From positions 13,919-58,589 of the forward strand of contig PKYQ01000014.1 in NCBI GenBank assembly GCA_003133685.1: a stretch of DNA of 44,671 bases, written 5' to 3'. This stretch comes from Acidimicrobiaceae bacterium. GTDB taxonomy: Bacteria; Actinomycetota; Acidimicrobiia; Acidimicrobiales; RAAP-2. Shown one piece after another: positions 11,410 to 44,186 of the stretch. Numbering within the stretch: the stretch's first letter is position 1; the number at the start of each line of letters is the position of its first letter. Position numbers and translations under genes: made by a program. The notes below the pieces were generated by a model, which was not told where the DNA came from, did not search any database, and saw only the letters and a program-made list of their open reading frames with translations.

Positions 11410-12250
11410 ATGGAACTGAAGGGTAAGACAGCCGTGATCACCGGAGGGGCCAGCGGCATCGGCCTCGCCACCGCCATTCAGTTCTCGAAGGCCGGCGCGA
11501 ACATCGTGCTCGGTGACATCGAGGACGCGCCGTTACACACCCAGGTCGAAGAGATGCGTTCCCACGGTGCGACCGTGATCGGCGTGCACTGCGACGTCGC
11601 CCAGGAGTCCGACGTCGAAGCACTGCGCGACGCCGCGCTGAAAGAGTTCGGCGCCGTCCACGTGATCTTCAACAACGCCGGTGTCGCCGGCGGCTCGACC
11701 ATTGGCACACCGAAGAAGATCTGGGACTGGGTGATGAGCGTGAACCTCGACGGCGTGGTGAACGGCATGAACGCCTTCATCCCGCTCTTTCTCGAGCAGA
11801 ACGAGGGTCACGTCGTGAACACGGCGTCCGAGGCCGGACTGGTCGGCGTCGCGGGCATGGGACCGTACAACGCGAGCAAATTCGCCGTCGTCGGTATCTC
11901 GGAATCACTCTTCCACGAACTCGCCAACACCGGTAAGAACGTCCACGTCTCAGTGCTCTGTCCGAACTTCGTGCGCACTCGAATCTTCGAGTCCGAACGA
12001 AACATGCCCAAGGAACTCGCCAGTTACGCCGAGAATCCCGGAAGTGCCGATCAAGAAGATCGCGGCCGCGTTGGTGAACGACGGCATCGAGGCCGCCGAC
12101 GTCGCCAAGGCCGTCGAAGACGCGGTGGTCAACGAGAAGTTCTGGATCCTCACGCACGAACATTCGGCGCTTCGCATCACCGAGCTACGTCTCGAGTGGA
12201 TGCGCGGCGGCCCTTCGCCAATGGCGGGGCTCGTCAACGTCAACAATTAG
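11410..12250 (+). pseudogene. Short-chain dehydrogenase with a single-base frameshift near the C-terminus
   Basis: The N-terminal 210 residues form a normal SDR (TGGASGIG, NNAGVAGG, NTASEAG, YNASK). After AENP (about 12039) the frame turns into an arginine-rich, low-complexity run. Reading one base later from the same point gives EVPIKKIAAALVNDG and a sensible C-terminus ending GLVNVNN with a TAG at 12248-12250. Dropping one C or G from CCCGG at 12037-12041 restores one protein of about 279 residues. The restored stop is interlocked with that of the dGTPase-like gene, as at other convergent junctions here, so this is surely the ancestral end. It is either a recent inactivation or a sequencing/assembly error. 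Confidence 0.75.
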
Positions 12251-13407
12251 CGGTCGATGCCGCTCGGCAGTTGGTCGATCGGCCAGTCGAGCAGCGTGAC
12301 CGCGCAGTGGCACGCGAATCGGTCAGTCATGCCCGCGACGTAGGCGACGCTGAGTTGCAACGCCATTGCGGGACTGTCGAGCGCTTCGTCGCCGACGGCA
12401 ACGTCCGGAATCAGTGTTGGATGGGCGGCGAAGTATTCGACGAGCGCTCGCAGCATCGCGACGACGGCGGTCGCCTGCTGGCGTGAGGCGCTTCGCAGAT
12501 AGATCGTTTCGTAGTTGAACGTGCGAAAGGCGGCGAGCGCCTCGGAGTGACGCGCGTCCATGCCGATGACGCCGGTGGAGCGAATCGTGCGGATCATGGC
12601 GTTGATGAAGGTGCCCAACTGTTGGCTTCGCCGCGCGCCGCAGCGCTCGCGCACGAGTGCCGGCAACTCCTCGGAGGCGACGATGCCGGCCGAGACGGCG
12701 TCTTCGAAGTCATGGCAGCTGTAGGCGATCCGGTCGGCCCAGCTGACGACCTCGCCTTCGGGCGTCGCCGGGGCCGGTCGCGACCACGAGTGGTTTCGTA
12801 TTCCATCCAGTGTCTCGCGACAGAGGTTCAAGCTCACGAGCGACACGTCGGCGCCCCAGACGGCGTGGTCGAAGCCCCCGTCGACGAAGGGATCGAGCGC
12901 CTCTTCGCTCGCGTGGCCGCCCGGTCCGTGGCCGCAGTCGTGTCCTAACGCGATGGCTTCGGTGAGGGCCACGTTGAGCCCGACCGCGCGCGCGACGCCG
13001 GTAGCGACCTGGGCGACCTCGAGAGCGTGGGTTAAGCGCGTACGCATGTGGTCGTCGGGGAAGACGAAGACCTGCGTCTTGCCGGCGAGCCGGCGAAAGG
13101 CGCTCGAGTGCAAGACGCGGTCGCGGTCACGCTCGAAGCAGGTCCGGAACTCGTCCGGTTCTTCTCCACGGGCTCGGTTTCCCGCCCCGTGACCTCTCGT
13201 TGCGCCCACAGCGAGTGCGGCGTCGAGCTGTTCTTCACGTTCCGCGAGCGATCCCGGAACGTTTGACGCGCCACTCGAGACATCGATCGAGGCCGAGGAG
13301 TCGCGGTGCGCGACCGTGACGTCGTCGGCCGCGCCCTCGTAACCCTCCATGGTGGCGGCCCAGCGTCGACTGCGCTCAGAGATCGGAGGGTCCGTCGCGT
13401 TTTCCAT
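12247..13407 (-). CDS. dGTPase-like HD-domain triphosphohydrolase
   Basis: Enzymes of this family remove triphosphate from dGTP or other dNTPs. The 386-residue protein contains RDRDRVLHSSAFRRLAGKTQ, the first HD-domain histidine in RLTHALEVAQVA, the metal-binding HD pair in GHDCGHGPGGHASEEAL and the later Asp in VSWADRIAYSCHDFEDA. That order is typical of deoxyguanosinetriphosphate triphosphohydrolases. The ATG at 13407 is preceded by GAAGGAAGG, which makes it better than an in-frame ATG seven codons upstream. The first 90 residues are polar and probably flexible. It is divergent from the DUF3107 gene and convergent with the frameshifted SDR. Preferred nucleotide unknown. Confidence 0.85.
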   Translation of the reverse strand: MENATDPPISERSRRWAATMEGYEGAADDVTVAHRDSSASIDVSSGASNVPGSLAEREEQLDAALAVGATRGHGAGNRARGEEPDEFRTCFERDRDRVLHSSAFRRLAGKTQVFVFPDDHMRTRLTHALEVAQVATGVARAVGLNVALTEAIALGHDCGHGPGGHASEEALDPFVDGGFDHAVWGADVSLVSLNLCRETLDGIRNHSWSRPAPATPEGEVVSWADRIAYSCHDFEDAVSAGIVASEELPALVRERCGARRSQQLGTFINAMIRTIRSTGVIGMDARHSEALAAFRTFNYETIYLRSASRQQATAVVAMLRALVEYFAAHPTLIPDVAVGDEALDSPAMALQLSVAYVAGMTDRFACHCAVTLLDWPIDQLPSGIDR

Positions 13408-13460
13408 AGTGCACCTTCCTTCTAGCATGTGATGGTCGCCAACGTGGCAGAGGAGCAGTG

Positions 13461-34214: not shown

Positions 34215-35366
34215 ATGGACGTCAGGGCCTCAATTCTTAGTGAAGTACACGGTCCTTGGCATACCGAGACCATCGAGATCGACGATCCTCACCCGTACGA
34301 GGTGCGCGTCAAGATGGCGTACTCGGGGATGTGTCACTCGGACTTGCACCTGCAGACCGGCGCGCTGTCACAAGCTCCCGTCGCCCTGGAGATGATCTCG
34401 GGGCGTCCGACGATGTTCCCGATCATCGGAGGACACGAAGGTTCGGGCGTCGTCGAGGCCGTCGGCGACGGCGTGACGTCGGTCAAGGTCGGCGACCACG
34501 TGGCGACGTCATTCATCCCCTCGTGTGGCAAATGCGAATACTGCGTCTCCGGGCGCCCGTACATCTGTGACATGGCCGCGGGCACACTCGCCGGTCCGAT
34601 GATCTCGGATGGCACGTGGCGCCACCACCTCGGCGACACCAACGTCAATCGAATGTGCAACCTCGGTACGTTCGCCGATTACATCGTCGTCCACGAGGCG
34701 TCGGTGATCCGCGTCGAACCGTGGTACGACCTCCGAGCCGCCGCACTCCTCTCGTGCGGCATCTCGACCGGCTTCGGAGCCGCCGTCAGTCGCGGTGGTG
34801 TGAAGCCCGGTGACGTGGTCGCGGTGATCGGCTGTGGCGGCCTCGGATCGGCCGCAATCCAAGGTGCCCTGCACGCCGGCGCGCGCGCCGTGGTCGCGAT
34901 TGACACCAATCAGTCCAAGATCGACCGCGCCATGAAGATCGGCGCCACGCACGGTTCGACGACGACGCTCGAGGCCGCGTTCACGATCCTTCCCGACCTG
35001 ACGTGGGGCAAGAACTGTGACGTCGTGATCATCACGGTCGGCGAAGCCACCAGTGAGATCATCGAGCAAGCTCGTTCCATCACCGCCAAGGGCGGTGTGG
35101 TGGTCGCCGCGGGCCTCGCGGCGTGGGATCAGACGTCTGTCGAACTCAATCTCTTCATGTTCTCGATGATGAATCAGGAACTGCGTGGGACCGTGTTCGG
35201 TTCCGAGGCGCCGCGCATTCAAATTCCTCGACTCCTTCGACTCCATAATGAAGGCAAGTTCATGATCGACGAACTGGTCACGCAGGAGTATTCACTTGAC
35301 GAGGTGCAAAAGGGCTACGACGACCTGGCATCCGGCGAGAACATCCGCGGGGTCATTCGGTTTTGA
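34215..35366 (+). CDS. NDMA-dependent (mycofactocin-associated) zinc alcohol dehydrogenase
   Basis: These nicotinoproteins keep NAD(H) bound and hand electrons to an external acceptor, in vivo mycofactocin, in vitro the dye NDMA. The 383-residue medium-chain dehydrogenase has the catalytic zinc Cys40 in GMCHSD, GGHEGSGVVEAVGDGV, the structural zinc set CGKCEYCVSGRPYIC and the Rossmann motif GCGGLGSAA. A family-typical insertion follows the zinc lobe (MISDGTWRHHLGDTNVNRMC). The ATG follows GGGGGAAG. TGTCA-N9-TGACA at 34161-34179 is a possible operator. It stands immediately beside the mycofactocin biosynthesis genes, which supports the assignment. Confidence 0.9.
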   Translation: MDVRASILSEVHGPWHTETIEIDDPHPYEVRVKMAYSGMCHSDLHLQTGALSQAPVALEMISGRPTMFPIIGGHEGSGVVEAVGDGVTSVKVGDHVATSFIPSCGKCEYCVSGRPYICDMAAGTLAGPMISDGTWRHHLGDTNVNRMCNLGTFADYIVVHEASVIRVEPWYDLRAAALLSCGISTGFGAAVSRGGVKPGDVVAVIGCGGLGSAAIQGALHAGARAVVAIDTNQSKIDRAMKIGATHGSTTTLEAAFTILPDLTWGKNCDVVIITVGEATSEIIEQARSITAKGGVVVAAGLAAWDQTSVELNLFMFSMMNQELRGTVFGSEAPRIQIPRLLRLHNEGKFMIDELVTQEYSLDEVQKGYDDLASGENIRGVIRF

Positions 35367-35386
35367 CCAGTACACGGATGTTCTCG
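35336..35386. repeat. 12-bp inverted repeat across the alcohol dehydrogenase stop
   Basis: CGAGAACATCCG (35336-35347), inside the last codons of the dehydrogenase, is perfectly complementary to CGGATGTTCTCG (35375-35386). The 27-base loop contains the TGA stop. The right arm lies directly at the border of a GNAT gene remnant. It could form a terminator-like stem (no T-tract) or mark the rearrangement that truncated the GNAT gene. Confidence 0.6.
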
Positions 35387-35387
35387 A

Positions 35388-35579
35388 GTGGCGGACGCAA
35401 TATCTCGTTTGCTCGCTATTAGCGACGAAATCGGCTGCCGAGGACTCCTGATACGCGCCGAAAGTGAAGGAGCACGCAACTTCTATCTTCACCAAATTCC
35501 CGGACTCGAGCAAAGTCCCACCGATGAACTCCATTTGTTGCTGCTATTGAAGGATGCCAGGGGGACGTTGCTCGAATAG
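35388..35579 (+). pseudogene. Remnant of a TacT-like GNAT acetyltransferase (toxin type)
   Basis: The 63-residue frame (VADAISRLL, IGCRGLLIRAESEGARNFY, SPTDELHLLLLLKDARGTL) matches the last third of GNAT toxins of the DUF1778/TacT toxin-antitoxin type, which end with a helix, an ARxFYxxxGFxxSPTD turn and HLMLLLKD. Everything before the final helix, including the acetyl-CoA P-loop, is missing. No DUF1778/RHH antitoxin is present, and the sequence abuts the dehydrogenase gene. The GTG at 35388 has no convincing ribosome binding site. It is therefore a decayed fragment rather than a working gene. Confidence 0.7.
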
Positions 35580-35596
35580 CGATGTGGGGTTCGCGG

Positions 35597-37048
35597 CTAA
35601 AGGTTGTCCGCCCCGGGTTTGAGCCCCAGGACGTTTCTCAGTCCAAGCGTGGACTTGGTGATATGAGGTTTCAGTGCACCGAGAGAGCGCGAACGCACTG
35701 CGCCGCTCATGACGCCGGCCCCGTAGGCGACGTCGTCGGCCACGCCGAGAGGAATATCGGCAACGCGAACCCGCGTCGATCGCCAGCGATACGCCGTTCC
35801 CACGATGAATAGCGTCAACGCGCGACGGCGGAGCTTCGGGTGCAGGGCGCTCAGCACGATCACGATGCCGAACGTGCGTACCGCGGCGCGCGCCATCAGG
35901 GGACCGGCGCGAACCATGCCGCGTCCGACCAGTTCGTCCGCGACCTTGCCCGCGTTGTCCGTCGTCGTAAGTAGTCGCTCGCGAAGTTGGTTGCGCGCGG
36001 CGTCCATGATGCGAAGCCCGACCATCGGCTTGCCGACCATTGCGCTCAGCCACGTAAAGAGCGTCCACGTATCGGCGCGAAAGGGCGCCAGGCGCGTACC
36101 GTGGCGCTGGGCGAGTTCGCTCGAGGACTGTCCGTAGCGAATGCGTTGTCCCCACCAACCGCGCCACGAGTCCCGGGCCCGGTGCGACACGGCGACCTCC
36201 GCGACGTAGCGAACGAGCCATCCGTGGTCGTGCAGTCGCCACACGAGATCGACGTCCTCCCCGTAGCGCAGTGACTCGTCGAAGCCGTCACCGAAACTGG
36301 TCCGGCGAATCAACAAGCACGCACTCGGTACGAAGTGCACCGCCGAGTTGGGAATCACCAACGCGCCGCGATCACCTACGTCCAACGGACTGAATCGCTC
36401 TTCGAAGTGGTCGCGCAGCGACGGGCCACGAGTGCCTCGGATGCGCGGCGCGACGGCTCCTTCGAGGGGATCGTCGAAGTAGGGCCCTAGCCGTGCGAGG
36501 ACGTCGAGCGCGTTATCGAAGGTGACGTCGACGTCGATGAACCACAGCAAAGGCCGCGACGTCGCTCGCGCCCCGGCGTTTCGGGCACTGCCGGGTCCAT
36601 GGTTCTCTTCCAGACGCACGACCTCAGCTCCGAAGCGTTGCGCGCAGTTCGCGACGGCTTCGGCGTCCCTCGACGCGTCGTCGACGACAGTGACGTGAAG
36701 TCCATGAAGTGACTCGAGAAGTGCGGCGAGAGGATCGACGTCATTGTGAACCGGCACGACGACGTCGACGTCGTCAACATTCGCTTCGCTGCGATAGAGG
36801 GGGTGGAGCAGTCCCTGTTGGACGAGCGTCCGAGCGAAACGCTCTTCGCCGGCCTGGACTTCGCCCCCGCCAACCCATCGTTCAGCCACTGCTCGAGATC
36901 CGCCGGGAAGACGCAGCAACCGCCACGGTGATCCGCCGCTCAGCAGGTCGCGGTCGAGGAACTTCGCACCTTCGTCGAGGATCACTTTCGTCCCCATCGG
37001 GACCGGAACTTCGACCGGGAGCGGCGCCAGAGGAAGTAGTTTGCTCAC
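35597..37048 (-). CDS. mftF: Mycofactocin glycosyltransferase MftF
   Basis: MftF adds a chain of beta-1,4-linked glucose to the mycofactocin precursor. The 483-residue protein has an N-terminal extension of about 90 residues (LDEGAKFLDRDLLSGGSPWR, typical of MftF), then a family-2 glycosyltransferase domain (VVVPVHND, VDDASRD, NHGPGSARNAG, FIDVDVTFD, RYGEDVDLVWRLHDHGW). A C-terminal region with hydrophobic helices follows. The GTG at 37048 is the only plausible start. The gene is divergent from mftA, 74 bp apart, whereas in mycobacteria mftF follows mftE on the same strand. Confidence 0.9.
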   Translation of the reverse strand: MSKLLPLAPLPVEVPVPMGTKVILDEGAKFLDRDLLSGGSPWRLLRLPGGSRAVAERWVGGGEVQAGEERFARTLVQQGLLHPLYRSEANVDDVDVVVPVHNDVDPLAALLESLHGLHVTVVDDASRDAEAVANCAQRFGAEVVRLEENHGPGSARNAGARATSRPLLWFIDVDVTFDNALDVLARLGPYFDDPLEGAVAPRIRGTRGPSLRDHFEERFSPLDVGDRGALVIPNSAVHFVPSACLLIRRTSFGDGFDESLRYGEDVDLVWRLHDHGWLVRYVAEVAVSHRARDSWRGWWGQRIRYGQSSSELAQRHGTRLAPFRADTWTLFTWLSAMVGKPMVGLRIMDAARNQLRERLLTTTDNAGKVADELVGRGMVRAGPLMARAAVRTFGIVIVLSALHPKLRRRALTLFIVGTAYRWRSTRVRVADIPLGVADDVAYGAGVMSGAVRSRSLGALKPHITKSTLGLRNVLGLKPGADNL

Positions 37049-37076
37049 GCGTGGAGTCTGACACGATTTGGTCCGG

Positions 37077-37096
37077 CACCGGTCGCGACACCGGTC
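37077..37096. promoter_or_regulatory. Tandem 8-bp repeats in the mftF-mftA divergent promoter region
   Basis: CACCGGTC occurs twice, at 37077-37084 and 37089-37096, separated by GCGA; each copy contains the palindrome ACCGGT. The repeats are 27 bp upstream of the mftA start and 28 bp upstream of the mftF start, a good place for an operator serving both. MftR, the usual TetR regulator, is not in this window. Confidence 0.4.
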
Positions 37097-37122
37097 AGAA
37101 TGGAGACGTTCGAGGAGGAACC

Positions 37123-37227
37123 ATGCCCACGGAAACACTGTTCGAAGAACCGGTTGTCGAGACTGAAGAGAGCGAGGAGCTGCTCGTCGAAGAGGTCTCC
37201 ATCGACGGACTGTGCGGCGTCTACTAA
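37123..37227 (+). CDS. mftA: Mycofactocin precursor peptide MftA
   Basis: This 34-residue peptide is the substrate from which mycofactocin is made. After an acidic leader (MPTETLFEEPVVETEESEEL) it ends EVSIDGLCGVY; in the family the final Val-Tyr is decarboxylated and cross-linked by MftC, then released as a two-residue core. The usual ending is IDGMCGVY, so Met is replaced by Leu here. GAGGAGG sits directly upstream of the ATG. A longer frame from 36709 is open but antisense to mftF and is not the gene. The stop is two bases before the likely mftB start. Confidence 0.95.
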   Translation: MPTETLFEEPVVETEESEELLVEEVSIDGLCGVY

Positions 37228-37229
37228 CC

Positions 37230-37511
37230 GTGACGACGTCATCCGCCGTCACTTTTGACGCGACCGCACCGTGGCAGTTGAACGAACAGGTCTCGTTGCG
37301 TGACGAGTCGTTCGGCGCGCTGGCGTACCACCACGGCACGCGTCGCCTGGTCTTCCTGAAGTCTCGCGAGCTCGTCGACGTCGTTCGCCGCGTCGCGGAG
37401 TTCGAGAGCGCCGACGCCGCAATCGACGCATTGGTTCCCGCGGATCAACACGCGCGCTACGTATCGGCCCTGACGTCACTCGTTCGCTCGGAGATTCTCT
37501 GTGGGCGCTGA
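37230..37511 (+). CDS. mftB: Mycofactocin chaperone MftB (RiPP recognition element)
   Basis: MftB is a PqqD-like RRE protein that binds the MftA leader and presents it to MftC. The 93 residues show NEQVSLRDESFGALAYHHGT and a winged-helix-like C-terminal half (LVDVVRRVAEFESADAAIDA). The GTG at 37230 lies two bases after the mftA stop; a GTG at 37212 inside mftA is an alternative that would give a six-residue longer form. There is no clear ribosome binding site, so re-initiation after mftA is likely. It overlaps mftC by 11 bases. Confidence 0.9.
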   Translation: MTTSSAVTFDATAPWQLNEQVSLRDESFGALAYHHGTRRLVFLKSRELVDVVRRVAEFESADAAIDALVPADQHARYVSALTSLVRSEILCGR

Positions 37512-38616
37512 GAGCTCGCTTCGTGATCGATTCGAACGAGGGCTGGCGGCCCCGATCTGTCTCACCTGGGAGCTGACCTACGCCTGCAACCTCGCGTGCA
37601 CGCACTGTCTCTCATCGTCGGGACGACGCGACCCCAATGAGTTGAGCACGCGAGAAGCGAAGTCGTTGATCGACGAGATCGCCGCGATGCAGATCTTCTA
37701 TATCAACATCGGCGGCGGCGAGCCGATGATCCGTCGCGACTTCTTCGAACTCATCGAACACGCGGTCGACCAGCACGTCGGCGTCAAGTTCTCGACGAAC
37801 GGAACCCGAATCGACGAAGCGGCCGCGCGCCGACTGGCGAGCATCGACTACCTCGACATCCAGATCTCGATCGACGGCGCCGACGCCGCGACCAGTGATC
37901 GAATTCGTGGCGCCGGAAGTTACGACAGCGCTCGTCGCGCCATGGACAATCTGAAGGCCGCGGATTTCGGTCAGTTCAAGATCTCGGTCGTGATGACCCG
38001 GGAGTCCATCGAACAGCTCGATGAATTCGAGAAGCTCGCCGCGCACTACGGCGCCGAGCTTCGACTCACGCGTCTACGACCCTCGGGTCGAGGCGTCGAC
38101 GTGTGGCAAGAACTGCACCCCACGCTCGAGCAGAATCGACGCCTGTATAGATGGCTGCTCGAACGTCCGAACGTGTTGACCGGCGACTCGTTCTTCCACC
38201 TCTCGGCGCTCGGCGAACCGCTCTCGGGGCTCAACCTCTGCGGCGCGGGTCGCGTGGTCTGTCTCATCGATCCGGTCGGTGAGGTCTACGCCTGTCCCTT
38301 CGTGATCCACGATGAGTTCCGCGCCGGCAACGTGCGCGCGGCGGGCTTCCAGGACGTGTGGCAGAACAGCGAACTGTTTCGATCGCTGCGCGAACCGGGC
38401 AACGCCGGCGCGTGCGCGTCGTGCGGTTCGTTCGACGCGTGTCGCGGCGGGTGCATGGCGGCGAAGTTCTTCACCGGACTCGAGATGAGCGACCCCGACC
38501 CCGAGTGCGTCTTCGGACACGGCGAGAGCGCGCTCGCCGCCAAGAAGGTGTTGTTGCGACCAACGCCGTCGCCCGATCACTCACGACGAATCCCGGTTTC
38601 GATCTCCTCGCGCTGA
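37501..38616 (+). CDS. mftC: Mycofactocin radical SAM maturase MftC
   Basis: MftC catalyses oxidative decarboxylation of the MftA C-terminal tyrosine and then a Val-Tyr carbon-carbon bond. The 371-residue protein has the radical SAM cluster motif Cys29-x3-Cys33-x2-Cys36 (CNLACTHC), the SAM-binding GGGEPMIR and a C-terminal SPASM domain with two auxiliary clusters (LCGAGRVVCLIDPVGEVYAC, ACASCGSFDACRGGC). The GTG at 37501 overlaps the mftB stop. Length and motifs are standard for the family. Confidence 0.95.
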   Translation: MGAESSLRDRFERGLAAPICLTWELTYACNLACTHCLSSSGRRDPNELSTREAKSLIDEIAAMQIFYINIGGGEPMIRRDFFELIEHAVDQHVGVKFSTNGTRIDEAAARRLASIDYLDIQISIDGADAATSDRIRGAGSYDSARRAMDNLKAADFGQFKISVVMTRESIEQLDEFEKLAAHYGAELRLTRLRPSGRGVDVWQELHPTLEQNRRLYRWLLERPNVLTGDSFFHLSALGEPLSGLNLCGAGRVVCLIDPVGEVYACPFVIHDEFRAGNVRAAGFQDVWQNSELFRSLREPGNAGACASCGSFDACRGGCMAAKFFTGLEMSDPDPECVFGHGESALAAKKVLLRPTPSPDHSRRIPVSISSR

Positions 38617-38672
38617 CGAGGACCAATTTGGGCCCTCGGATAAAGTTCCACTGAGTCGGGAACGGGGAATTG

Positions 38673-39845
38673 ATGGCGAGCAAGTGGTTTGAGTCGGTGG
38701 CCGTCGCCCAGCGTCGAGCCGAGAAACGTCTCCCCAAGTCCGTCTACGCGGCCCTCGTCGCCGGATCCGAAAAAGGACTCTCGTCAAGGGACAACCTGGA
38801 GTCCTTCGACCTCTTGGGATTCGCGCCGCACGTGGCCGGGAACAAGCGCGAGCGCACGATGTCGACGACGGTCATGGGCCAATCGGTGTCGATGCCCGTG
38901 CTGATCTCACCGACCGGTGTGCAGGCGGTGCACCCCGACGGCGAGGTCGCGGTCGCGCGCGCCGGGGCGAACCGCGGCGTCTGCGTCGGGCTCAGCTCCT
39001 TCGCCAGCCGCTCGCTCGAGGAGGTCTGCGCCGTCAGCGACCAGGTGCTGTTCCAGATGTACTGGTCCGGAGAGCGCGACACGATGCTCCAGAGGCTCAG
39101 TCGCGCGAAGTCAGCCGGGGCCAAGGGCATCATCCTCACCCTCGACTGGTCCTTCTCCAACGGACGCGACTGGGGCAGCCCCTGGATCCCCGAGAAGATA
39201 GACGCCAAGGCCGTCCTGAAGCTCGCCCCCGAGGTGCTGGCGCGCCCGGCGTGGTTCTGGAGCTTCGCGCGCAGCGGGCACCTCCCCAACCTCACGACGC
39301 CCAACATGGCGCTGCCCGGAGAGAAGCCCCCGACCTTCTTCGGCGCCTACTACGAGTGGATGCAGAGCCGGCTCCCCAGCTGGGAGGACGTCGCGTGGTT
39401 GCGTTCCCAGTGGGACGGTCCCTTCATGGTGAAGGGGGTCAGCCGCGTGGATGACGCGAAGAGGGTCGTCGACCTCGGCGCCACGGCGCTGTCGGTCTCC
39501 AATCACGGGGGCAACAACCTCGACGGCACGCCCGCACCGATCCGCTCGCTCTCGGCGGTCGCCGACGCGGTGGGCGACCAGATCGAGGTGCTCCTCGACG
39601 GCGGGGTGCGCCGCGGCAGCGACGTCGTCAAGGCGCTCGCGCTCGGGGCGCGGGCGGTGATGATCGGCCGCGCCTATCTGTGGGGGCTCGCCGCCAACGG
39701 CCAGGCGGGAGTGGAGAACGTGCTCGACGTGCTGCGCGGCGGCATCGACTCGACGCTGCTCGGGCTCGGGAGGTCGAGCACGCTCGAGCTCACCCGCGAC
39801 GACGTGGTCGCCCCCACGGACTTCTTCCGGAAGCTCGGAACGTGA
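38673..39845 (+). CDS. mftD: Mycofactocin FMN-dependent oxidase MftD
   Basis: MftD oxidatively deaminates the cyclised intermediate to give the redox-active pre-mycofactocin. The 390-residue protein belongs to the FMN-dependent alpha-hydroxy-acid dehydrogenase fold (PVLISPTGVQAVHPDGEVAV, FQMYWSGERD, VKGVSRVDDAKR). It has the catalytic histidine in SNHGGNNLDGTPAP; ordinary lactate oxidases have SNHGGRQLD, and the NN variant is typical of MftD. DGGVRRGSDVVKALALGA and MIGRAYLWGL complete the flavin site. The ATG at 38673 follows ACGGGGAA. It overlaps the SDR gene by four bases. Confidence 0.92.
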   Translation: MASKWFESVAVAQRRAEKRLPKSVYAALVAGSEKGLSSRDNLESFDLLGFAPHVAGNKRERTMSTTVMGQSVSMPVLISPTGVQAVHPDGEVAVARAGANRGVCVGLSSFASRSLEEVCAVSDQVLFQMYWSGERDTMLQRLSRAKSAGAKGIILTLDWSFSNGRDWGSPWIPEKIDAKAVLKLAPEVLARPAWFWSFARSGHLPNLTTPNMALPGEKPPTFFGAYYEWMQSRLPSWEDVAWLRSQWDGPFMVKGVSRVDDAKRVVDLGATALSVSNHGGNNLDGTPAPIRSLSAVADAVGDQIEVLLDGGVRRGSDVVKALALGARAVMIGRAYLWGLAANGQAGVENVLDVLRGGIDSTLLGLGRSSTLELTRDDVVAPTDFFRKLGT

Positions 39846-40627
39846 ACCGCGTCGCGATCGTCACGGGGGGCGCGCGAGGCATAGGAGCCGCGACCGTGGA
39901 CGCCCTCGTGAACGACGGCTGCCGCGTCGTGGCGGTGGACCTTTGTCGCGACATCGATGAGATCGGCTACCCGATGGCCACGCGCGCCGACCTTGACGCG
40001 GTCGTGGCCCGACACGGCGACTCGGTGCTCGGCCTCGTCGGCGACGTGCGAAGTTCCTCGGACATGCAGCTGGCGGTCGAGACTGCGACGCGCCACTTCG
40101 GTCGCCTCGACGCGGTCGTGGCGTGCGCCGGGGTGATGGGTGCCGGTGGTCAGTTCTGGAACGTGAGCGACGCCTCGTGGGACGCGGTGTGGTCGGTGAA
40201 CGTGCTCGGAACGCGTCGGCTCATCGAGGCGGCCGCCCCTACGTTGATCGCCAACGGACCGGCGGCCAACAGCCGCATCGTCGCGGTCGCGTCAGCGGCC
40301 GGGAGCCTGGGTCTTCGTCACCTGGCCGCCTACACCTCGGCCAAGCACGCGGTCGTGGGCCTCATTCGAGGCGCGGCGATGGATCTGGCGGAGTATGGCG
40401 TCACCGCCAACGTCGTGAGTCCCGGCTCCACCCGCACCGCGATCCTCGAGGCCACGGCTCAGGTCTACGGCCTCTCCAGCGGCGAGGAGTTCGCCGCGCA
40501 GCAGCCCATCGGGCGCCTCCTCGATCCCGTCGAGATCGCCGCGGCGATCGCATGGGTGTGCTCTCCGGGGTCCTCGGCCGTCACCGGTGCCGACCTCGCC
40601 ATCGACGGCGGCATGACTGTCTCATAA
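39842..40627 (+). CDS. Mycofactocin-type SDR oxidoreductase
   Basis: The 261-residue SDR has TGGARGIG, DV in GDVRSSSD, CAGVMG in place of NNAG, the Ser in VASAAGSLG and the YTSAK pair. After the second beta strand it has VDLCRDIDEIGYPMATRADL, the insertion that in mycofactocin-dependent SDRs covers the NAD and keeps it from dissociating. The GTG at 39842 overlaps the mftD stop (GTGA), so it is co-translated with the cofactor genes. Its alcohol substrate is unknown. It occupies the place where mftE sits in mycobacteria. Confidence 0.9.
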   Translation: MNRVAIVTGGARGIGAATVDALVNDGCRVVAVDLCRDIDEIGYPMATRADLDAVVARHGDSVLGLVGDVRSSSDMQLAVETATRHFGRLDAVVACAGVMGAGGQFWNVSDASWDAVWSVNVLGTRRLIEAAAPTLIANGPAANSRIVAVASAAGSLGLRHLAAYTSAKHAVVGLIRGAAMDLAEYGVTANVVSPGSTRTAILEATAQVYGLSSGEEFAAQQPIGRLLDPVEIAAAIAWVCSPGSSAVTGADLAIDGGMTVS

Positions 40628-40811: not shown

Positions 40812-43800
40812 GTGACGTCCAGCACCGACCGCACACTCGATGAACTCGCCCCCGCGTCGTGCACGCGCGCCCGAGGACTCATCGACGACGCGCAGCGCCT
40901 GCGGACCCGGCGTGAGCGGGCCAACCGGCGCCGATTCTCGCGGCTGCTGAAGGATCGCCGCGCGATCGAGGTGACGATGACGTTGACCGATGAGGTGATG
41001 CGAGTGAGCCAAGCGCGCAGTGCCGCGGGGATCCTTCGAGGCACGGCGAAGCGGGCCAGCGTCGCGGGATTCGGCGCACTCAATGCCCTGGGCCTGCGAC
41101 TCATCGCGCTGGTGTCGCGTCCGACGCCCGCGCTCGCGGTCAAGGTGGTCCACGCCAGGGTGCGTGAACTCTCCAAGGACCTCATCCTCGCCGGTGAGAA
41201 CGACCCGCTGCGACGCCACCTTGACATCCGCCAGCGCGAGGGCATACGGCTCAACATCAACGTCCTCGGCGAGGCGGTGCTCGGCGAGGGCGAGGCCAAC
41301 GAACGACTCGAGCGAGTGCTCGAGATGATGACGCGCGAGGAGGTCACGTACGTCTCGGTGAAGCTCTCCTCGCTCGTGAGCCAGATCGTCACCATCGACC
41401 ACGAGGGCTCGCTGGAGCGGGTGTGCGAGAAGCTCCGGCTGCTCTACCGAAGGGCCCGGCGCGACGGCGTCTTCGTGAACCTCGACATGGAGGAGTACCG
41501 GGACCTGCGTCTCACCGTCGACGGATTCACCACGGTCCTGTCCGAAGCTGAGTTCGAAGACGTCGAGGCCGGCATTGTGCTCCAGGCGTACCTACCCGAC
41601 TCCCACCAGGCGCTCGAGGAACTCGTGGCCTGGTCGAAGGGCCGTCACGAGCGAAGCGGCGCCTCGATCAAGGTCCGCCTGGTGAAGGGCGCCAACCTCG
41701 CCATGGAGCACGCCGAGGCGCAGCTCCACGGCTGGACGCCCGCCCCCTATGGCTCCAAGGCCGACGTCGACGCGAGCTACGCGCGCCTGTTGGACGTCAG
41801 TCTGCGCTCCGCCAACGCCGGTGCCGTTCGCATCGGGGTCGCCAGCCACAACCTGTTCGACCTCTCGTGGGCGCTCGATGTCGCGCGCGAGCGCGGCGTA
41901 GAGGACCAGCTCGACATCGAGATGCTCGAAGGCATGGCCAACGCCGAGGCGCTGGCCATCGTCCAGAGCGGCCGCACGGTGCTGCTCTACGCGCCGGTGA
42001 CCCAGCACGACGACTTCGCGGCCGCCGTGGCCTACCTCGTGCGCCGTCTCGACGAGAACACGTCCGACGAGAACTACCTGAAGGCCGCCTTCTACATCGC
42101 CGACGACCCTAAGGTCTTCGCGGACCAGCAGCAGCGCTTCCTCGACTCGTTAGAGGCACGTCACCACGTCGTCACCGCGTCGCGGCGCCACGCGGTGGCG
42201 AGTGCCCACCGCAACGAGCGCTTCGAGAACTGCGCCGACGGCGATCCCACGAACCCGGTCTACGCCGCTGAGGTTACCGAGTCGCTCGCCCAGGTCGTCG
42301 GCGTGCGCGGCCACGAGATACCTCTGGTCATCAACGGCGAGCGGGTCGCCGCGGAGCAGTTCGAGGAGGGCCGGGACCCGAGCGCCCACGGGACTACCTG
42401 GTACCGCTACGCGGTCGCCACCGCCCTGCAGGTCGATGCGGCCGTGGCGAGCGCAAGGGCCTGCGCTCCGGCGTGGGCCGCTCTCACGTGCGCCGAGCGA
42501 CGCGTGATCCTTCAGAGCGCGGCAGCGGTGATGGAGCTGCGTCGCGCGAGGGCCATCGCGGTCATGGCGCGCGACGGCGGCAAGACCGTCGCCGAAGCCG
42601 ACCCCGAGGTGAGCGAGGCCATCGACTTCGCGCGCTTCTACGCGAATGAGGCCCAGGACTTCGGCGAGTCCGAGCCGCTCGGTGTCGTGCTCGTCGTGCC
42701 TCCCTGGAACTTCCCGTACGCGATCCCGTGCGGCGGCGTGTGCGCCGCATTGGCGGCGGGGAACGCGGTCATCTTGAAGCCCGCGCCCGAGGCGGTCGCT
42801 TGCGCCTGGGAGCTGGTCCAGTGCCTCTGGGAAGGGGGAGTGCCGCGCGACGTCCTGCAGTTCGTGCCCACGCGCGACGACGAGAGCGGACAGCGTCTCG
42901 TAACCCACGAGGGAGTGGACGGCGTCATACTCACCGGCTCGTTCGACACCGCCCGGCTGTTCACCTCGTGGAAGCCCGCCATCAACCTGCTCGGCGAGAC
43001 CAGCGGCAAGAACGCGATGCTCATCTCGTCCTACGCCGACATCGACCTGGCCGTGAAGGACCTCGTCCAGTCCGCCTTCGGCCACGCCGGCCAGAAGTGC
43101 AGCGCCGCCAGCCTCGGTATCGTCGAGAGGTCGATCTACGACAACCCCGCGTTCTTCCGCCAGCTCGGCGACGCCGTGCGGAGCCTCGCGGTCGGCGCGG
43201 GCTACGACCTCTCGACGTCGGTGGGCCCCATCATCCGGCCGGCCGAGGCGACCCTGGCGCGCGCTCTGGGTCAGCTCGACCCTGGCGAGGCGTGGCTCGT
43301 GGAGCCCGAAGCGCTCGACGAGGGACGACTGCTGTGGCGACCCGGCGTGAGGATCGGGGTCGCCGCGGGCTCGTGGAGCCACCAGAACGAGTGGTTCGGA
43401 CCGGTCCTGGCGATCATGCCCGCGCCGGACTTCGAGACCGCTCTGGCCTGGCAGAACCAGGTTCCCTACGGTCTTACCGCAGGCCTGCACTCCCTCGATG
43501 AGGCCGAGTGCCAGTACTGGATCGACCACGTCGAGGCGGGCAACCTCTACCTCAACCGAGGAGTCACCGGAGCGGTAGTGAACCGTCAGCCCTTCGGAGG
43601 ATGGAAGCGCAGCAGCGTCGGGCCGAGCGCGAAGGCGGGGGGCCGCAACTACGTCAACTGCCTGCGTAGCTGGCCCGCGTTGGTGGACGCCGACCGAGCC
43701 CAGGCAGAGCTCGAGGAGTGGTGGCGAAGCACTGGATCGCGCTCTCGCGACGAGGCCGGTCTCAGCGTCGAGGCCAACGTGCAGCGCTACCGCCACGCCC

Positions 43801-44186
43801 TGGCGCCCATCGTCGTGAGGGTCGATGAGTCCTTCGACTCCCTCCAGGCCACGTTCGTCGCAACCATCGCCAGCGTCACCGGCGCGTCCCTCACCTTCAG
43901 TGCGGGCCGCGACGTGCAGAGCGTCGAAGAGTGCACTCTCGAGAGCACCGATGAGCTCATTGCGCGCGCCGGTGGGACCCAAAGGGTGCGTTGGCTGAGC
44001 GCCGAGCCAGCGCCGGCGCTCGCGCTTCTCGATCGCGGAGTCTCCCTGGACCGGCGCCCGCTCGCCCAGTGCGGGTCGGTCGAGGGACCCCGCTGGCTCC
44101 TCGAGCAGAGCGTGGCGATGACCCGTCACCGCTACGGCAACGTGAACGCCGGCCCCAAGCCGGTGTGCCTGGGCCTGGGCGAGTAG
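40812..44186 (+). CDS. putA: PutA-like proline dehydrogenase / glutamate-semialdehyde dehydrogenase
   Basis: The bifunctional enzyme oxidises proline to glutamate. The 1124-residue protein has a proline dehydrogenase barrel (about 90-450: NINVLGEAVLGEGEANER, YVSVKLSS, VRLVKGANLAMEHAEA, ASHNLFDLSWAL, EMLEGMANAE, YAPVTQHDDFAAAVAYLVRR, DENTSDENYL). An aldehyde dehydrogenase domain follows (about 500-960: VVPPWNFPYAIP, LTGSFDTARLF, catalytic Glu in LLGETSGKNAML, catalytic Cys in GHAGQKCSAAS, PFGGWKRSSVG). There is no DNA-binding RHH domain at the N-terminus, so it is not a self-regulating PutA. The GTG at 40812 is the earliest good start. A weak hairpin follows. Confidence 0.92.
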   Translation: MTSSTDRTLDELAPASCTRARGLIDDAQRLRTRRERANRRRFSRLLKDRRAIEVTMTLTDEVMRVSQARSAAGILRGTAKRASVAGFGALNALGLRLIALVSRPTPALAVKVVHARVRELSKDLILAGENDPLRRHLDIRQREGIRLNINVLGEAVLGEGEANERLERVLEMMTREEVTYVSVKLSSLVSQIVTIDHEGSLERVCEKLRLLYRRARRDGVFVNLDMEEYRDLRLTVDGFTTVLSEAEFEDVEAGIVLQAYLPDSHQALEELVAWSKGRHERSGASIKVRLVKGANLAMEHAEAQLHGWTPAPYGSKADVDASYARLLDVSLRSANAGAVRIGVASHNLFDLSWALDVARERGVEDQLDIEMLEGMANAEALAIVQSGRTVLLYAPVTQHDDFAAAVAYLVRRLDENTSDENYLKAAFYIADDPKVFADQQQRFLDSLEARHHVVTASRRHAVASAHRNERFENCADGDPTNPVYAAEVTESLAQVVGVRGHEIPLVINGERVAAEQFEEGRDPSAHGTTWYRYAVATALQVDAAVASARACAPAWAALTCAERRVILQSAAAVMELRRARAIAVMARDGGKTVAEADPEVSEAIDFARFYANEAQDFGESEPLGVVLVVPPWNFPYAIPCGGVCAALAAGNAVILKPAPEAVACAWELVQCLWEGGVPRDVLQFVPTRDDESGQRLVTHEGVDGVILTGSFDTARLFTSWKPAINLLGETSGKNAMLISSYADIDLAVKDLVQSAFGHAGQKCSAASLGIVERSIYDNPAFFRQLGDAVRSLAVGAGYDLSTSVGPIIRPAEATLARALGQLDPGEAWLVEPEALDEGRLLWRPGVRIGVAAGSWSHQNEWFGPVLAIMPAPDFETALAWQNQVPYGLTAGLHSLDEAECQYWIDHVEAGNLYLNRGVTGAVVNRQPFGGWKRSSVGPSAKAGGRNYVNCLRSWPALVDADRAQAELEEWWRSTGSRSRDEAGLSVEANVQRYRHALAPIVVRVDESFDSLQATFVATIASVTGASLTFSAGRDVQSVEECTLESTDELIARAGGTQRVRWLSAEPAPALALLDRGVSLDRRPLAQCGSVEGPRWLLEQSVAMTRHRYGNVNAGPKPVCLGLGE

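Follow-up and report, generated by a model that had tools for sequence, protein, structure and literature searches.

The stretch of DNA analysed here, 44,671 nucleotides of an Acidimicrobiaceae assembly (GCA_003133685.1, contig PKYQ01000014.1, here C22:13919-58589; hereafter the window), carries a mycofactocin (mft) locus in which mftD stands directly behind mftC, in the place that mftE occupies in close relatives. We consider it probable, at roughly 0.7, that this is a working locus of an uncultured acidimicrobial genus from which mftE, the gene for the peptidase that frees the Val-Tyr core, has been lost, with mftD in its operon place and the leader removed by general peptidases. This reading starts from four things visible in the sequence: the gene set, the lack of a detected creatininase-family protein in the source genome, the difference in slot content within the genus, and purifying selection.

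The mft locus and the slot after mftC

The source genome (2.50 Mb in 33 contigs, 95.26% complete) was compared with related assemblies. In an MftC scan of genome contigs (best 80 loci), seven of the nine nearest loci belong to Acidimicrobiaceae assemblies with the isolate names 'palsa' or 'bog'. Genes were called with NCBIfam profiles at curated cut-offs, which all seven named genes of the locus exceed:

34215-35366, plus strand: N,N-dimethyl-4-nitrosoaniline (NDMA)-dependent (nicotinoprotein) alcohol dehydrogenase (ADH), candidate mycofactocin client (TIGR03989, 463.6 bits, cut-off 440)
35597-37048, minus strand: mftF, glycosyltransferase, divergent from mftA (TIGR03965, 290.4 bits, cut-off 280)
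37123-37227, plus strand: mftA, precursor peptide of 34 amino acids, C-terminus VEEVSIDGLCGVY (TIGR03969, 40.5 bits, cut-off 25; PF23709)
37212-37511, plus strand: mftB, precursor-binding chaperone (TIGR03967, 93.4 bits, cut-off 33)
37501-38616, plus strand: mftC, radical S-adenosylmethionine (SAM)/SPASM maturase with radical SAM and SPASM domains (TIGR03962, 600.4 bits, cut-off 265)
38617-38672, plus strand: short mftC-mftD gap, the border at which relatives with mftE carry that gene and not mftD
38673-39845, plus strand: mftD, flavin mononucleotide-dependent pre-mycofactocin synthase, in the slot of mftE in relatives that have it (TIGR03966, 671.8 bits, cut-off 470.85)
39842-40627, plus strand: mycofactocin-coupled short-chain dehydrogenase/reductase (SDR) (TIGR04504, 321.4 bits, cut-off 250; NF040491, 296 bits, cut-off 265)

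The start of mftF (GTG at 37048) was picked by reading the sequence. MftA ends in IDGLCGVY, with the core CGVY present, and the start codon of the SDR (39842) and the stop codon of mftD (39843-39845) overlap. An NDMA-type ADH is present in 48 of the 58 mft loci retrieved, contig ends truncating some of the remainder. The initial annotation of this DNA had named the ADH, a divergent mftF on the minus strand, mftA-B-C-D on the plus strand and an SDR coupled to mftD; all are where it put them, each above its cut-off, and client-type dehydrogenases (TIGR03989 ADH, TIGR04504 SDR) do adjoin the locus, as its phrase 'client enzymes built in' implied.

It had also reported that mftE and mftR are missing, and both absences were borne out. 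A TIGR03964 profile search of the source genome returned no MftE match at E ≤ 0.001, and no protein of the creatininase family (PF02633) was found there even at E ≤ 10. The locus lies ~48 kb from one contig end and 19 kb from the other, so mftE has not been cut off by a contig end. Only one MftC exceeds its cut-off in this genome, and thus no second complete mft cluster was found. Among 80 sampled genus genomes, the source included, no MftR was found above cut-off, and weaker TetR-like matches occurred in all of them. In a search that also covered 80 genus genomes, creatininase-family proteins at E ≤ 0.001 were likewise missing from 34 of the 39 genomes that have mftC and lack mftE, while the same search recovered MftE in all five genomes of its sample that have both mftC and mftE. 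The other five (G338, G359, G368, G383, G386) carry a distant creatininase, scoring 49-90 bits with the MftE model. We therefore reject an mftE just outside the window or elsewhere, on the MftE and creatininase searches of the source and genus genomes. Of the two options that the annotation had left, an mftE elsewhere was not found, so that any production of the cofactor calls for a different enzyme; neither of the outcomes that it named as contrary to its view, an mftE just beyond the window or a second complete cluster, turned up.

Gene counts come from 77 genus genomes, drawn from a larger set, and from wider samples of 150 genomes of the family and 248 of the order. In the family sample, six genomes with sub-cut-off MftE matches, some at contig ends, were scored as having mftE (G074, G327, G291, G319, G299, G324), and other sub-cut-off creatininase matches, including the five above, were not; partial mftD genes of G383, G340 and G267 were scored as present, as were the partial mftD of G131 and the sub-cut-off or split mftE of G074 and G143 in the order sample. 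G311, which has mftE and a sub-cut-off mftC, is not among the mftC-bearing genus genomes. On this basis, MftC exceeds its cut-off in 115 of the 150 family genomes (55/77 in the genus, 60/73 outside it). In the genus, 48 of the 55 have MftD and lack MftE, and seven carry both. In 45 of the 48, mftD follows mftC directly (within 700 nucleotides (nt) downstream on the same strand); of the remaining three, G354 has it ~1.5-1.6 kb and G325 4.4 kb downstream, and in G358 the locus is split over contigs. In six of the seven genomes with both genes, it is mftE that stands directly 3' of mftC, the seventh (G356) being broken over contigs. Across the 48 loci lacking mftE, the median mftC-mftD gap is 60 nt (<200 nt in 44), and the SDR lies within 6 kb downstream in 47.

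This exchange is set in an otherwise shared block, aconitase-argS-ADH-mftF(minus)-mftA-B-C-slot-SDR, found in this genus and in genera g2 and g3 to the extent that the contigs cover it; in the window, too, argS lies upstream of the locus. Exceptions are G237, in which no ADH was found, several genomes with extra genes inside the block, and the wide mftC-mftD spacing of G325 and G354. Since mftF is on the strand opposite mftC in 54 of the 54 loci with both genes in this genus and two sister genera, calling the locus 'rearranged' is misleading. The slot holds mftE in genus members that have this gene and mftD in those that lack it, and the SDR lies beyond it either way. The first annotation, that the SDR occupies the mftE position, thus fits when the mycobacterial order is the yardstick and not otherwise; the closest relatives have the SDR after the slot, and replacement of mftE by the SDR is rejected. 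Judged by gene order, it is mftD that took the mftE slot.

Genus members with mftE (G074, G110, G193, G317, G327, G373) share the block argS-ADH-mftF-mftA-B-C-slot with the window, and the SDR follows the slot in five of them, the contig of G327 ending first. They differ in having mftE in the slot, with mftD on another contig or, in G074, G110 and G373, on the same contig as mftC, ~10 kb upstream and ~0.9-1.0 kb beyond aconitase. In G311, mftD is beside aconitase too, on a different contig from mftE. Genera g161, g2 and g160 have the order C-E-SDR, with mftD elsewhere, and for this reason mftE is taken as the ancestral occupant of the slot. An ancestral C-D-E order inside the genus is unlikely on the same evidence; within the family sample, g157 alone showed mftC-mftD with mftE beyond or on a different contig, and g157 lies outside the clade of these genera. 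Genus g3 (G216, G237) has nothing in the slot and carries mftD elsewhere. The MftC tree joins g3 to g2 and g160 and not to the genus of the window, and the mftE loss of g3 is therefore counted as a separate one.

The genes that remain appear to be maintained. Ratios of nonsynonymous to synonymous polymorphism (pN/pS) are 0.02-0.34 for mftB, mftC, mftD, mftF, SDR, ADH and argS in seven pairs of genomes lacking mftE; by this measure these genes are under purifying selection. The MftA tail reads VEE(V/I)SIDG(L/I)CGVY in all 45 peptides found in the 48 loci without mftE, and VEEVSIDG(L/M)CGVY in 8 of 8 loci with it, g2 included. Taken together, this looks like a maintained pathway rather than a relic.

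Relocation of mftD and release of the core

The steps below, client use included, follow the established pathway, apart from release by general aminopeptidases, which we infer. MftB would bind MftA, and MftC would decarboxylate and cyclise its Val-Tyr core. Release would then fall to at least one general aminopeptidase with its gene outside the locus, which would cut the leader back as far as the last glycine and remove this residue too, freeing the core as 3-amino-5-[(p-hydroxyphenyl)methyl]-4,4-dimethyl-2-pyrrolidinone (AHDP). MftD would deaminate AHDP to pre-mycofactocin, MftF would glycosylate the product, and the ADH and SDR would use the cofactor. The trimming would proceed as in a Mycobacterium smegmatis ΔmftE mutant, but efficiently enough to be tolerated. 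Most simply, the arrangement itself would go back to a single ancestral event: mftD left its former position beyond aconitase, ~10 kb upstream, to take over the slot, from which mftE was removed.

We favour general aminopeptidases because the M. smegmatis mutant still makes the cofactor. In the portions consulted of this and the other papers cited here, to which all our statements about them refer, the mutant makes significantly less mycofactocin and accumulates Gly-AHDP (PMC7491314), and it grows on ethanol with a delay (PMC7491314, PMC6529628); the authors deduce that an unknown peptidase stands in for MftE (PMC7491314, PMC6529628). In the window, Pfam identified no peptidase among 35 proteins scanned, several of which had no match and some of which may be in the wrong frame; the reading frame at 12247-13428 (minus strand) is not among the 35. 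In the flanks available, clustering of neighbouring open reading frames (ORFs), chosen by codon-position GC content, placed no gene outside the known block in over 18 of the 48 loci lacking mftE, although such clustering can miss genes and many contigs end early. Fourteen cluster representatives were scanned, two of them (L053, L057) from clusters exclusive to loci with mftE; the recurrent neighbours of loci lacking mftE that were scanned are oxidoreductases, transporters, biosynthetic enzymes and one regulator, with no peptidase among them. The source genome encodes one M17 and four M24 peptidases. Peptidases of both families are expected in most bacteria.

As a separate observation, L053:493-1479 (minus strand), between mftD and aconitase in G110, a genome with mftE, encodes an alpha/beta hydrolase resembling platelet-activating factor acetylhydrolase, with a weaker 'serine aminopeptidase S33' (PF12146) match. 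Its ORF cluster comprises three genomes with mftE and none lacking it.

Trees of MftD, MftC and the SDR, which exclude rows of 180 amino acids or less (3, 1 and 1 rows, respectively), and of the flanking aconitase and ArgS bear on how often the exchange took place. When the flank tree is constrained to a single clade of loci with mftD in the slot (D-slot loci), it is 3.49 log units better and is not rejected (P value of the approximately unbiased test, p-AU, 0.55); several independent slot swaps are thus unneeded. With G142 and G334 left out, a single D-slot clade is likewise not rejected for MftC (p-AU 0.394), and in a quick tree the D-slot SDRs form one group with a Shimodaira-Hasegawa-like approximate likelihood-ratio support of 99.3. 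MftD sequences from genomes with mftE interleave with slot MftDs, which points to relocation of mftD rather than import from outside, the latter being unlikely. Most simply, then, the trees and gene orders would be explained by one relocation of mftD with loss of mftE, followed by vertical descent. The two genomes set aside, G142 (L054) and G334 (L166), have a divergent mft locus, with MftC 57-59% identical to that of the window, the core IDGICGVY and the order with mftD in the slot; their contigs stop just past mftF, and the tree placement of both is unsure.

Several points weigh against the reading as a whole. Quick trees of the flanks (G168, with <10% of columns, left out) and of MftC each need three changes for the D-slot label, and the SDR tree that includes G142 and G334 needs two. 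A single clade of the genus members with mftE is not rejected either (p-AU 0.635), so that the direction of change rests on the sister genera. On the biochemical side, the ΔmftE mutant makes less cofactor and piles up Gly-AHDP, and by analogy a lineage on that route would need an enzyme that removes the glycine. Finally, at 95.26% completeness one gene may have been missed in the source genome taken alone, and a possible assembly join described below may have brought in part of its mftD and the SDR from a second strain.

The most serious competitor to release by general peptidases, though an unlikely one, would be one dedicated peptidase, of a different family and with its gene elsewhere, that the clade recruited for mycofactocin upon losing mftE. 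Removal of Gly-AHDP looks like a bottleneck in M. smegmatis without MftE (PMC7491314), which would favour a specialist; in the loci lacking mftE, however, no extra gene passes the recurrence given above, within the limits stated for the clustering, and none of the scanned recurrent neighbours is a peptidase. Much less probable is release by MftD itself, which would oxidise the leader-bound lactam at C3, hydrolysis of the acyl-imine then yielding pre-mycofactocin together with a leader amidated at its C-terminus. A chemical parallel is the oxidative N-dealkylation carried out by peptidylglycine amidating enzymes, and such release by MftD, if true, would make MftE unnecessary and explain why mftD sits in its slot. 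In its favour, mftD does occupy that slot, and it is kept in 53 of the 55 genomes of the family sample that have mftC and lack mftE, the two without it being 64% and 81% complete. Yet the MftDs of six genus genomes with mftE and 44 sequences from genomes without it (46 were aligned before G142 and G334 were set aside) show no fixed or strong-majority residue difference, an argument against a novel activity of MftD. Nor are genomes lacking both genes significantly depleted in the order sample, MftD being missing in 3 of 15 genomes without mftE versus 32 of 84 with it (p = 0.25), and Gly-AHDP accumulates in M. smegmatis ΔmftE though MftD is present (PMC7491314).

We give still less credence to an mftE that is present but was missed, whether in the ~5% of the genome that is unassembled or because it is too divergent. 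Incompleteness leaves room for this, MftE does diverge fast here (in G074 it scores 169.2 bits, under the cut-off of 172), and five genus genomes carry the distant creatininases described above. Against it stand the absence of mftE from 48 of the 55 genus genomes with mftC, 45 of them with mftD directly after mftC, and the 34 of 39 genomes without any creatininase-family protein. The least credible alternative is that the locus is decaying and the cofactor is no longer made. MftC above cut-off is missing in 22 of the 77 genus genomes and is split in frame in G349; but the low pN/pS values across all genes compared, the CGVY core unchanged in every MftA found and a locus that stays together with its client enzymes all oppose decay.

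Distribution beyond the genus and known systems

Outside the genus, the 60 family genomes with MftC comprise 29 with both MftE and MftD, 24 with MftE only, five with MftD only and two with neither. In the order sample, MftC exceeds its cut-off in 99 of the 248 genomes: 52 have MftE and MftD, 32 MftE only, 12 MftD only and three neither. Five genomes of family f56 in this sample have mftC followed by mftD and no MftE above cut-off; four of them carry a more distant creatininase, as does G158, of the same family, which has no MftC above cut-off. MftD above cut-off is thus missing in many genomes with mftC and mftE (24/60 outside the genus, 32/99 in the order sample), where a different enzyme may deaminate AHDP. 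Two genomes with mftC, G049 (L046) and G031 (L047), 96% and 95% complete, have neither MftE nor MftD above cut-off.

With the mft operon of M. smegmatis and M. tuberculosis (mftA-F, mftR), the window locus shares the MftA core CGVY, MftB, MftC, MftD, MftF, the order mftA-B-C-D and the associated ADH and SDR families; unlike it, it has no MftE and no MftR, mftF is divergent, and the SDR stands where mycobacteria have mftE. The M. smegmatis ΔmftE strain, in which an unknown peptidase is inferred to free the core (PMC7491314, PMC6529628), likewise runs the pathway without MftE, but it is a laboratory deletion with reduced product, whereas here the lack of mftE is the natural state across a genus. 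Herbiconiux sp. L3-i23 (PMC11778925) also has mft genes without mftE; according to that paper it has lost mftB and mftC too, whereas the synthesis core is intact in the window.

That MftD, MftE and MftR are found in most, not all, mycofactocin species is already known (Haft 2011, PMC3023750); the portions consulted of that paper give no lineage, slot exchange or selection analysis. A literature search by titles and the starts of abstracts, most subscription papers lying outside it, returned nothing on MftE loss in these organisms. What is new here, as far as these sources go, is a clade-wide natural loss of MftE accompanied by a gene swap. Schemes of the pathway show MftE as a standard step, although M. 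smegmatis can cope with its loss, if at a cost. A genus that has given up mftE while selection maintains the remainder suggests that the step is dispensable in nature. The 48 genomes lacking mftE and the eight with it form a matched set in which to seek a substitute peptidase.

Flanking genes and a possible join inside mftD

Directly after the SDR, the window encodes a PutA-like proline dehydrogenase/aldehyde dehydrogenase fusion (40812-44186). Among the mapped loci, only G340 has a close homologue (88%) there, with identical spacing.

Contig C28 of the source genome opens with a second, partial mftD and an SDR, and one further feature of the window connects the two copies:

38921-38942, no strand assigned: 22 bases identical to positions 1-22 of contig C28 (L205, G000:C28), which may mark an assembly join

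After these 22 bases, C28 diverges from the window (77% over 1.7 kb) and runs collinear with G329. The closest relative of the window among the genomes compared is mostly G329 up to ~38.9 kb and mostly G340 from ~39.0 kb, and G340 is also the genome that shares the PutA-like gene downstream. The window may thus be a mis-join of two strains, with C28 the true continuation, or the product of real recombination with a retained copy. G329 and G340, each the closest relative on one side of the possible join, both have the order mftC-mftD-SDR, and the gene order is the same whether join or recombination.

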